A stretch of DNA of 64,000 bases, taken from Chromobacterium haemolyticum. Its GTDB lineage: Bacteria > Pseudomonadota > Gammaproteobacteria > Burkholderiales > Chromobacteriaceae. The notes beneath the pieces are model-generated. The model ran no database searches. It was not told the DNA's origin and saw only the letters and a list, made by a program, of their open reading frames with translations. The translations under genes were made by a program, and so were the position numbers. Positions 4,350 to 64,000 of the stretch are shown here, piece after piece. The DNA is taken from NCBI RefSeq assembly GCF_002081825.1, contig NZ_MUKU01000008.1, positions 1-64,000 on the forward strand, in the 5' to 3' direction. Every line of letters begins with the position of its first letter. Positions within the stretch are counted from its first letter, which is position 1.

Positions 4350-4445
4350 TGTTTTGTGCAGTGCGATTATGACTAATCGAAGATTGTAACCGATTTCGCC
4401 CCGACTGGGAGCGGACCGGCCTCGCCCGCCTCCCGTTTGATCACC

Positions 4446-5300
4446 TTACACCAAGACCTTGCCCGTCAACTGCTCCAACAGCGCCAGCGGCGACTGTTGC
4501 GGCTGCGCCATCTCCGCCACCGGCAACCAGAAAGTCTGCTCCAGCATGAACTGACCGGACATCACCGCGTGAGACGCATGATCGGAGAAACAGACCCAGG
4601 CGCAGCCGGGCGGAAACGGCATGGTTTCCTGCGGACATTGGCGCTGGTAATCCAGATCCGCCTTCATCGCGTCGTGCAGATGCAACATGATGTGATCGTA
4701 AGCACTGCGCTTGCGCTTGGTGATCTTCAAAGCCGCCAGCAAGGCCGCCGAACCCGGCCATTGCCGCGGCACCCGCGGCAGCATGCGCCGCGCCATATCG
4801 GCAAAGGGCTCGCCCACCCGCCACACCCTGGGCTCGCCATGCGGGTTGATGTTGCAGAACACCCGCAGAATGCGTTCGCCGTAATTGGGGCGGGACGGAA
4901 ACGCGTCCACATGCAGCCGGCTGTCGTCCTTGCGCCAGGACGTCCGGCGGTTCTCCACCCGCATCAACCGCAGGCTGGTGGGCGCAGCGCGCAGCTTGCC
5001 CTGATATTCCGGCAACAATCGCGCGGCCAGGTCCGCGGCGGCCCGCTGGTAACGCGAGATCAAGCCGCGCACCTCAGCCTCTCGTGCCGCGCCGCCCGCC
5101 ACACCATGCAAGGCGCCGTTGTCCGGCTCCAGGCTGATGTTCTTGCGCTTGGGATCGGCGATGGCCGGGTCCAGCAAGCGCTCCTCCTCGGCCTGCAACT
5201 TGAAATCGAAACGGGGCAGATACAAAACCTTGCCCTGCTCCAATTCATCCACATAGCGGCCTTGCGCCGCCTCATCCACCAATACGATCTGGCTCGTCAT
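4446..5300 (-). CDS. kdoO: Kdo hydroxylase family Fe(II)/2-oxoglutarate dioxygenase
   Basis: This 284-residue protein resembles KdoO, the iron- and 2-oxoglutarate-dependent enzyme that hydroxylates the outer Kdo sugar of lipopolysaccharide to Ko. The HxD facial-triad pair is visible as LHVDAF (His130, Asp132), and a distal histidine occurs in CFSDHASHAV (about 241-244). The reading frame is open further upstream, but I chose the ATG at 5298-5300 because GGGAG lies just before it and the family starts near this point. Gene name is by family resemblance. Neighbours give no further clue. Confidence 0.8.
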   Translation of the reverse strand: MTSQIVLVDEAAQGRYVDELEQGKVLYLPRFDFKLQAEEERLLDPAIADPKRKNISLEPDNGALHGVAGGAAREAEVRGLISRYQRAAADLAARLLPEYQGKLRAAPTSLRLMRVENRRTSWRKDDSRLHVDAFPSRPNYGERILRVFCNINPHGEPRVWRVGEPFADMARRMLPRVPRQWPGSAALLAALKITKRKRSAYDHIMLHLHDAMKADLDYQRQCPQETMPFPPGCAWVCFSDHASHAVMSGQFMLEQTFWLPVAEMAQPQQSPLALLEQLTGKVLV

Positions 5301-62650: not shown

Positions 62651-63409
62651 GTGCGCCCTACTCTCAGCTTCCATCTTCAGACCATTCCCAACGTGCCCGC
62701 CATCCGCCAGCTCTATGAGCTGGACGGCGAGATCGGGGAGGCCGACGTCGCCGATTTCGTGCTGCAGCGCTGCCGCGCCCAAAGCGGCACCGATTTCATC
62801 CCCTTCCATTTGCACCGCGTGGTCGCCATCGCCGGCGTACTGCAGCAGGATGGACACACCCGCCTCTTCCAACGGCTCGCCGTCGATGCCGGCGACGAAG
62901 CCGCGATGCTGACGGACTGGCTAACCCTGCTGCGCGACAGCCGGGCGCAGTTGATCAGTTGGGACGGCTCTCGGCTGGAGCTGCCGGTGTTGCTCCATCG
63001 CGCGCTGGCGCTGGGCTTGCATCTGCCGGAACAGCTCCGCGCCGGCCGGACGCCGGACGCGCATTGCGCGCTGAGCGAGATCCTGAGCGGCGGCCATGCC
63101 GAACTGGCCACCCCTTTGGGCGAGCTGGCCCGTCTGTGCGGCCTGCCCGGAGAAACCGAACTCAACGGCCCTCGGCGCTGGGAACTGTACCGCGCCGGCA
63201 ACGCCGGCGCGCTCGCCGAACACAATGCGCGCCAGGCCGCCAGTTGCCATCTGCTGTGGCTGCGCCAGCAATGGGTGGAGGGCGCGCTGGCTCCAGCCAC
63301 CTATCAAGCCTGTAGACAAAGCTTGCGCGCCGCCGTCGCCGCGCAACCGGAACCGCACTGGCGCGGCTGGCTGGCCGACTGGCGCGCAGAGGCCGCGCAA
63401 GGGGATTGA
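62651..63409 (+). CDS. PolB-associated 3'-5' exonuclease-like protein with lost catalytic acids
   Basis: This 252-residue protein resembles the stand-alone 3'-5' exonucleases related to DNA polymerase B (DEDDy type). The overall pattern is kept: LSFHLQTIPNVPAIRQLYEL, DFIPFHLHRVVAIAGVL, LISWDGSRLELPVLLHRAL and LGELARLCGLPGE. But the catalytic acids have changed: FDIET reads FHLQT, GFDLP reads RLELP, and the third motif's CExDV reads NARQA. It is therefore probably inactive as a nuclease, perhaps a binding protein. The start is GTG. The promoter upstream has a palindromic spacer. Confidence 0.75.
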   Translation: MRPTLSFHLQTIPNVPAIRQLYELDGEIGEADVADFVLQRCRAQSGTDFIPFHLHRVVAIAGVLQQDGHTRLFQRLAVDAGDEAAMLTDWLTLLRDSRAQLISWDGSRLELPVLLHRALALGLHLPEQLRAGRTPDAHCALSEILSGGHAELATPLGELARLCGLPGETELNGPRRWELYRAGNAGALAEHNARQAASCHLLWLRQQWVEGALAPATYQACRQSLRAAVAAQPEPHWRGWLADWRAEAAQGD

Positions 63410-63434
63410 CAGCCAAAAGCCAAAGGCATAGGCT
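63406..63434 (+). promoter_or_regulatory. Candidate promoter of the SAM-II-type leader
   Basis: TTGACA (63406-63411), a 17-bp spacer and TAGGCT (63429-63434). Transcription would start near 63441, a few bases before the first riboswitch stem. The -35 overlaps the stop codon of the exonuclease-like gene. Confidence 0.5.
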
Positions 63435-63443
63435 GACATTCAT

Positions 63444-63493
63444 GCGCCGATTTGACACAGCTTGCGGGCGCTTAACAAATGCCAGCTAAAGCG
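63444..63493 (+). ncRNA. SAM-II-type riboswitch aptamer 1
   Basis: The order of elements matches the SAM-II aptamer. P1 arms are GCGCC (63444-63448) and GGCGC (63467-63471). Loop 1 starts GATTT. A segment ...AACAAAT then GCCAGCTAAAG follows, equivalent to GATAAATG..GCTAAA in the well-known SAM-II RNA. The loop's GCTTGC can pair with GCCAGC (one mismatch), giving the pseudoknot, and ATTT of loop 1 can pair with AAAT. Such RNAs sense S-adenosylmethionine and usually control methionine-related genes. Recognised from memory of the consensus; no covariance search was possible. Confidence 0.6.
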
Positions 63494-63504
63494 TCAAACC
63501 GGTC

Positions 63505-63544
63505 AACCCGCTTGCGCTCTTAAGTCGTAGGCGGGTTTTGTTTT
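63505..63544 (+). terminator. Intrinsic terminator after aptamer 1
   Basis: AACCCGC (63505-63511) pairs with GCGGGTT (63531-63537), followed by a T-rich run (TTTTGTTTT). CCCGC of the terminator can instead pair with GCGGG at 63464-63468, part of which forms P1 of the aptamer, so ligand binding would favour termination. Confidence 0.65.
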
Positions 63545-63628
63545 ACCCGTACAGGCAGTTAAGCAAACCAATCGCTTCGGATCGATGCATGAGCCGCGCC
63601 CCGCTATCCGTTTCGGGCATGCGCGGCA

Positions 63629-63680
63629 GGCGCCGAGTTAAAGACAACTTGCAGGGCGCCCAAAAATCCTGCTAAAGCGT
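63629..63680 (+). ncRNA. SAM-II-like riboswitch aptamer 2 (variant)
   Basis: A second copy of the same pattern: P1 arms GGCGC (63629-63633) and GCGCC (63656-63660), the loop CAACTTGCAGG, then CAAAAATCCTGCTAAAGCGTC. GCAGG (63651-63655) and CCTGC (63668-63672) form a perfect 5-bp pseudoknot. The CTAAAGCGTC end is identical to aptamer 1. The loop-1 ATTT is not kept (GAGTTAAAG), so it is a diverged or related class (SAM-V is a possibility). A hairpin, CGCCGG/CCGGCG, lies between it and the ribosome site. Confidence 0.5.
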
Positions 63681-63737
63681 CGCCGGCGAAACCCAGAACC
63701 GGCGCGCCAACCGCGACCGAACCAACTGGAGACCGCC

Positions 63738-64000
63738 ATGTACGACTGCCTGCAAGATAGCTATACCGATTTCTCTTTTGCCAATTTCGACGCCGTGGGA
63801 AGACCTCGCCCCCTTTGCGGCAGCCTGAGCGCCTCTCCGCTCACGCCGGCCGACGCCCCCGCTCTGCAACAGCTGGCGGATTTCGCCCATGAACTGGGCT
63901 ACGAACTGGAACGCAACGGCGAACAGCTGACCGTGCGGGATATTTCGCTAGTGGACGCGCTCAGCATCAACGCCCGCTTTGGCGGCGAACTGCTGATCAG
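63738..64000 (+). CDS. Unrecognised protein, 5' part only (cut by the window end)
   Basis: The frame is open from ATG 63738 to the window end (87 codons). It begins MYDCLQDSYTDFSFANFDAVG and continues with Pro/Leu-rich sequence, then LADFAHELGYELERNGEQL. A GGAG ribosome site sits 6 bp upstream. I do not recognise the family, and the visible part shows no signal peptide, membrane helix or SAM-binding motif. The long leader with two SAM-II-type elements suggests that it, or a gene further downstream in the same transcript, is tied to methionine or S-adenosylmethionine metabolism. Confidence 0.6.
   Translation, partial: MYDCLQDSYTDFSFANFDAVGRPRPLCGSLSASPLTPADAPALQQLADFAHELGYELERNGEQLTVRDISLVDALSINARFGGELLI

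Follow-up and report, generated by a model that had tools for sequence, protein, structure and literature searches.

A conserved tandem of SAM-II-family elements, a predicted two-stage SAM switch, ahead of a small-protein gene and a MATE transporter gene in Chromobacterium haemolyticum

The leader of a small unnamed gene in Chromobacterium haemolyticum carries two successive RNA elements of the SAM-II family, which we consider likely to constitute a two-stage OFF switch for that gene (MYDC) and the MATE transporter gene behind it, acting on transcription first and on translation second, with SAM as the predicted ligand. Within the window, by which we mean the whole 64,000-nucleotide stretch of DNA that was analysed, the leader occupies positions 63406-63740 of the forward strand, and its parts follow one another in the order promoter, element 1, terminator, element 2, Shine-Dalgarno sequence and ATG at 63738. 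A DNA search of 41 genomes, namely its own and 40 relatives, returned matches in 35, and 24 of the 41 carry both elements in the same order within one leader. These comprise 18 of the 19 same-genus genomes (its own included) and 6/6 from other genera of the family; in the same-genus exception, G011, the only copy lies before metN. The succession of promoter, SAM-II element, terminator, second element, Shine-Dalgarno sequence and gene is constant across the 24 leaders, and we rejected a chance origin because both elements recur in order in all of them. For the same reason, conservation of the leader in 24/41 genomes, we take the observation as real despite the weak Rfam scores described below, which taken alone would have left it weak under the refuting condition set at the outset. 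The original prediction had held that the two elements share one order of parts, with pseudoknot complementarity in each, and that a promoter has its predicted start just ahead of stem P1; these features are present in the sequence, and the two elements are kept in the 24 leaders. The promoter, at 63406-63434, consists of a -35 hexamer TTGACA (63406-63411), a 17-nt spacer and a weak -10 hexamer TAGGCT (63429-63434), which has the consensus base at 3/6 positions and lies upstream of P1. A consensus promoter scanner at its threshold found no promoter in the leader. TTGACA is retained in 23 of the 24 related leaders, and TTGAC in all of them.

Element 1 (63436-63501) is, by its sequence, a diverged SAM-II (RF00521) aptamer and a predicted SAM binder. 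Aligned to the SAM_alpha model, it has a P1 stem (63444-63448 with 63467-63471), an AUUU-type third strand (GATTTG, 63449-63454), a GCUAAA core (GCTAAAG, 63485-63491) and a pseudoknot, all of which are kept in the 24 leaders, and it resembles SAM-II further in its terminator and in the methionine genes near its relatives. Against SAM_alpha (RF00521, Rfam 15), it scores 21.2 bits (E 0.024 in 801 nt), which is below the gathering threshold of 36. Homologs of element 1 reach 37.3 to 45.2 bits and exceed gathering in 4/61 genomes and 0/14 controls, and sub-cut-off matches occur also in 8 of the 14 control genomes at E<=1. R1, the covariance model described below, was built without element 1 and gives it 39.0 bits (E 1.2e-8 across the 64 kb of the window). 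The SAM-II type that had been proposed for both elements holds for the first, whose homologs pass gathering even though its own match to SAM_alpha does not; the second is matched by neither the SAM-II nor the SAM-V model. Relatives of element 1 precede metZ (L071), metN (a second copy in the same genome) and metH (L080), and the window copy itself precedes the MYDC gene. The names metZ, metN, metH, MATE and metK were assigned mostly by short protein motifs or by eye, with family searches supplying the name for the MATE protein of the window and for metK in part of the metK loci.

The opposite strand of element 1 (window 63412-63541, minus strand) matches RF02424, the Bp2_287 'Burkholderia sRNA' family, and such matches lie antisense to SAM-II element-1 copies in ten further loci (L002, L022, L023, L026, L027, L030, L216, L225, L274 and L281), at 18 to 43 bits against a gathering threshold of 70. 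A leader controlled by a bound protein or an antisense RNA, with no riboswitch in it, would accommodate this match, under cut-off as it is; however, an antisense match is also what a mis-oriented SAM-II model would give, and it is the sense strand that bears the terminator and the SAM-II core, so we regard such a leader as highly improbable. Perhaps the Bp2_287 family itself is a SAM-II riboswitch that was assigned to the opposite strand in error.

The intrinsic terminator that had been placed after the first element is found at 63505-63544, with a stem formed by 63505-63516 and 63526-63537 and a T tract that runs to 63544. A terminator scanner restricted to loops of <=8 nt reported none after element 1, and a script permitting longer loops found a hairpin with a T tract at this point in 24/24 leaders, in which the stems vary between genera yet remain paired. 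The 5' arm of the terminator is complementary to GCGGG, which lies at the end of the element 1 loop and in the 3' P1 strand, and by raw count the two could form an uninterrupted run of 6 to 8 pairs in every one of the 24 leaders. This complementarity would render aptamer folding and antitermination mutually exclusive, with GCGGG as part of a putative antiterminator. In the mechanism that we propose, element 1 would fold its pseudoknot when SAM is high and withhold the GCGGG strand from the terminator 5' arm, whereupon the terminator would form and transcription would end before element 2.

Element 2 (63622-63690) has a P1 stem (63629-63634 with 63655-63660), a third strand GAGTTAA (63635-63641), a pseudoknot of GAC (63643-63645) with GTC (63679-63681), a P1a pair (63653-63670) and an adenine-binding U at 63673. 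No Rfam family recognises it: in the window neither SAM_alpha nor SAM_V matches it at E<=10, its relatives give no RF00521 or RF01826 match at E<=5 or E<=2, and Rfam at gathering annotated 0/18 of the metK-leader elements. It shares with SAM-II (RF00521; also SAM_alpha or metA motif) the topology, the core and the P1a pair, which a mutual-information analysis by Barrick and Breaker had indicated for SAM-II (PMC2258182). It differs in having GNGUUAA in place of GAUUUAA in 111 among the 119 pattern matches listed, in its GAC/GUC-type outer helix, in the lack of a model match and in mostly preceding metK. With SAM-V (RF01826), it shares an H-type pseudoknot, the same pocket and likely translation control, and some of its relatives (e.g. 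L085, L108 and L126) have an extra hairpin after P1 that resembles P3. Unlike SAM-V, however, the window element has no P3 between P1 and the A-rich strand and no model match, and its Shine-Dalgarno sequence lies 46 nt past the pseudoknot strand (which ends at 63681), whereas that of SAM-V lies inside P2a. We rejected SAM-V on the grounds of model score, Shine-Dalgarno position and the absent P3, and SAM-II proper for want of a model match. Since no SAM-II model matches it, we regard element 2 as a subtype of the SAM-II family that is common in Betaproteobacteria and usually neighbours metK; we refer to it as the metK type.

The distribution of this subtype was read from a search of the GTDB genome collection with the pattern GACAACTTGC-N10..35-GCTAAAGCGTC, which yielded at least 119 stretches. 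Among the 119 matches listed, 99 lie directly before metK and 10 before M[YF]DC genes, 4 reach the end of the sequence and 6 have other genes; among the 80 titles listed for the at least 119 matches, betaproteobacterial ones predominate, with one Bacteroidetes title and some that are unspecific. From 33 pattern matches and 8 relatives we assembled an alignment of 41 sequences (A1), which omits 3 of 44 non-redundant element-2 sequences (L127, L171 and L183) for an aberrant P1 or origin in another phylum, and built the covariance model R1 from it. Element 2 scores 71.7 bits against R1 by construction, being in the training set. Of 300 genomes from the order, 245 have R1 matches at E<=0.1; with the core common to both types, these matches also take in element-1 types. 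When 299 genomes were drawn from the phylum, R1 matched 33 at E<=0.001, and 18 of the 33 belong to the order.

Paired variation, which had been named as a check on the elements, is present in P1, the P1a tertiary pair and the pseudoknot. In A1, four of the six P1 pairs show two-sided changes, and the P1a pair, which joins the nucleotide following UUGC to the one preceding GCUAAAG, is GC in 21 sequences, AU in 14, GU in 3 and something else in 3; it is a standard pair in 108 among the 119 listed of at least 119 pattern matches. Overall, 97.1% of cells in A1 are paired against 90.7% in shuffles, with 49 two-sided changes against 14.8, and sliding the partner columns by 1-3 lowers pairing to 34-47%. 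Further pair types in A1 did not rise above shuffles (296 of 500), and most pseudoknot positions in A1 were fixed beforehand, as the alignment came from one search pattern. The outer helix P2b was also examined in a second, R1-found set of 91 loci, which were hand-picked, mostly as the best R1 matches, so that their gene counts are no random sample. P2b was readable in 79 of the 81 element-2-type matches of this set and fully paired in 71 of the 79, as GAC/GUC (53), AGC/GCU (10), AAC/GUU (5) or one of three single types; a shuffle over 12 haplotypes gave p 0.095. These data bear on whether element 2 might be a degenerate or structural remnant that binds no ligand and leaves element 1 as the sole regulator. 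Its failure to match any Rfam family would fit a remnant, as would the report that one domain of a Pelagibacter SAM-II/SAM-V tandem is silent in the full-length RNA (PMC11508383). However, the core of element 2 is kept in 24 leaders, with up to 96% identity over 55 nt between genera, and the element varies in a paired manner and recurs alone before metK, all of which argues against a remnant and leaves it quite improbable.

We compared the pocket of element 2 with the SAM-V structure by motif alignment. The SAM contacts described for SAM-V include U47, which binds the adenine, U9 and U20, which face the sulfonium and together exclude SAH, and A50 (PMC6061858). Element 2 has the equivalents of all four, at U63673 (U47), U63638 (U9), U63650 (U20) and A63676 (A50). 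The U that touches U47 (U8 in SAM-V) is G63637 in element 2, and it is G in 111 among the 119 matches listed; A18 of SAM-V is a C in both elements. Plain GATTTAA is present in several second elements of tandems. Because most of the pocket is retained and plain GATTTAA occurs in these tandem second elements, SAM is the expected ligand of element 2. A leader in which element 1 is a SAM-II terminator switch and element 2 senses a different, SAM-related ligand (SAH or methionine), making a two-input gate, is an unlikely alternative to which the substituted G beside the adenine-binding U lends some weight, together with a report that close variants of another SAM aptamer switched ligand to spermidine (PMC10853860). 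Against a different ligand stand the matched SAM contacts, both SAH-excluding uridines among them, the plain GATTTAA forms, the usual neighbour metK (99 among the 119 listed) and the separate SAH riboswitches (RF01057) that already sense SAH elsewhere in 7 of 18 metK-type loci (L083, L086, L088, L091, L120, L121 and L149).

On the reading that element 2 responds to SAM, transcripts that escape termination would carry this aptamer and would be subject to a second step. Downstream of the core, a duplex test located an alternative hairpin, H2, formed by 63677-63686 with 63699-63707, which consumes the pseudoknot strand GCGTC, and the Shine-Dalgarno sequence of the MYDC gene, GGAGA, lies at 63728-63732. 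SAM would lock the pseudoknot strand GCGUC that is otherwise used in H2; without H2, the post-aptamer stretch would pair around the Shine-Dalgarno sequence, and translation of MYDC would be blocked. In MYDC leaders, H2 forms in 8/8 clusters and reaches p<0.05 in 5/8, compared with 3/8 for shuffled-probe controls, and in metK leaders it is near control (12/54 clusters versus 8/54 with shuffled probes). Pairing of the Shine-Dalgarno region with the post-aptamer stretch reaches p<0.05 in 3/8 clusters of MYDC leaders and goes beyond shuffles (p<0.05) in 33/54 clusters of metK leaders. Equilibrium folding counts against the two-stage reading, in that Shine-Dalgarno exposure hardly moved: it went from 0.52 to 0.47 for MYDC leaders, with a decrease of more than 0.1 in 6/24, and from 0.23 to 0.23 for metK leaders, with 6 lower and 4 higher of 95. 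Translation control by element 2 is likely. The two-stage SAM sensor that was originally proposed is supported by the comparative data as regards the SAM-II-family tandem and termination control, and its translational step is probable.

The presumed target gene is not a known methionine enzyme, as had been stated, and has no match to a Pfam or NCBIfam family. Reading past the window's end at 64000 reveals that it encodes a small protein of 99 aa (63738 to 64037, including the stop codon) and is followed by the MATE transporter gene. MYDC searched against PDB sequences gave a best E of 0.42. An AlphaFold2 model (mean pLDDT 78.8, pTM 0.61) has a beta-alpha-beta-beta-alpha-beta domain after a low-confidence N-terminus, and Foldseek against the PDB returned nothing at E<=0.001, the best match being to designed miniproteins (3.2e-3). 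MYDC belongs to a conserved unnamed family, and we collected 53 distinct M[YF]DC proteins. Where the sequence extends far enough, two cores lie upstream of their genes (50 of 52) and a MATE motif lies downstream (45 of 48). The logic of the switch suggests that MYDC is wanted when SAM is low. The MATE gene would be regulated along with MYDC, and shutting off a MATE pump by SAM has no obvious rationale, which counts against the OFF-switch reading.

The position of the element also relates to metK. In the 28 genomes from five families that have M[YF]DC, metK was located in all, and in 25 of them the element ahead of M[YF]DC was read as well. None of the 28 metK loci has the element in its leader, and the metK leader of the C. 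haemolyticum genome itself holds no copy of element 2. Two weak R1 matches in the 28 loci (12.8 and 11.4 bits) were rejected, as their strand is wrong and they fall outside the leader. Because these genomes with M[YF]DC have no element at metK, the target seems to have been swapped: many families carry this type of element ahead of metK, and others carry it ahead of M[YF]DC. We tentatively suggest, as a possibility that falls somewhat short of even chances, that the metK-type aptamer is a widespread SAM-II subtype and the missing metK regulator of Betaproteobacteria; that where metK lacks it, the switch sits before MYDC-MATE, usually with a SAM-II terminator switch; and that MYDC is an unrecognised SAM-homeostasis protein that replaces direct control of metK, acting e.g. 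on MetK or methionine flux.

Tandem SAM-II switches with two mechanisms are already known in kind. SAM-II/SAM-V tandems combine transcription control with subsequent translation control (PMC9481103, PMC11508383), and 149 SAM-II/SAM-V and 44 tandem SAM-II arrangements have been reported, some of the 44 with mixed platforms, although the text that we could access does not name the organisms and genes of the 44 (PMC9481103). The present leader resembles both kinds in placing a terminator first and control of the ribosome-binding site second; it differs in having a metK-type second aptamer and MYDC-MATE as its target. SAM-II occurs in Alpha-, Beta- and Gammaproteobacteria (PMC2704228), and SAM-II with terminators has been reported in beta-proteobacteria (PMC2258182). 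A metXZ RNA element described in beta-proteobacteria by Leyn et al. 2014 (PMC4239095) occurs in the same taxa and has metX/metZ targets, a pseudoknot, a terminator and a GC-rich proposed antiterminator; it is probably of element 1's type, although the portion of that text available to us draws no SAM-II link. The same study sought regulation of metK and metNIQ in beta-proteobacteria unsuccessfully. In the open-access literature, we found no paper on a metK-associated SAM-II-type RNA in Betaproteobacteria or on SAM-II in Chromobacterium, of which specialists may know. The metK-type subtype and MYDC/MATE as the target of a SAM-II tandem are new here. The metK question of 2014 would be answered by a large, uncatalogued SAM-II-family subtype ahead of metK, which would also extend the range of sequences known for the SAM-II pocket; MYDC would become a candidate for a role in SAM supply, and the tandem would offer a compact, naturally occurring example in which what is most likely a single metabolite controls transcription and then translation.

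Several further arrangements were observed. Tandems of a SAM-II and a metK-type element precede other, mostly unnamed genes in L166, L094, L210, L281, L286 and L288, and in L286 the tandem is followed by two genes named by eye, one of HD-domain appearance and one resembling metK. In L082 of another family (4388-4557), the third strand of a tandem's first element is GAGTTGA, resembling that of element 2, yet a terminator follows this element, which suggests that the element-1 and element-2 types grade into each other. In L127 (7079-7144), a record titled Bacteroidetes, the core has its GATTTAA form and precedes a hairpin that resembles a terminator. SAM-II-like elements with a long P3-type hairpin lie ahead of a conserved ORF of ~102-106 aa in nine genomes (L240-L248) from family f55 in the same class; for this ORF, Pfam gave weak methyltransferase-domain matches (best E 0.022). 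L244 also contains the Pseudomonas sRNA P11, which suggests that these genomes may be Pseudomonas. Finally, a SAM-II-like element in L251 (2226-2296) lies ahead of a 15-codon ORF, possibly a leader peptide.
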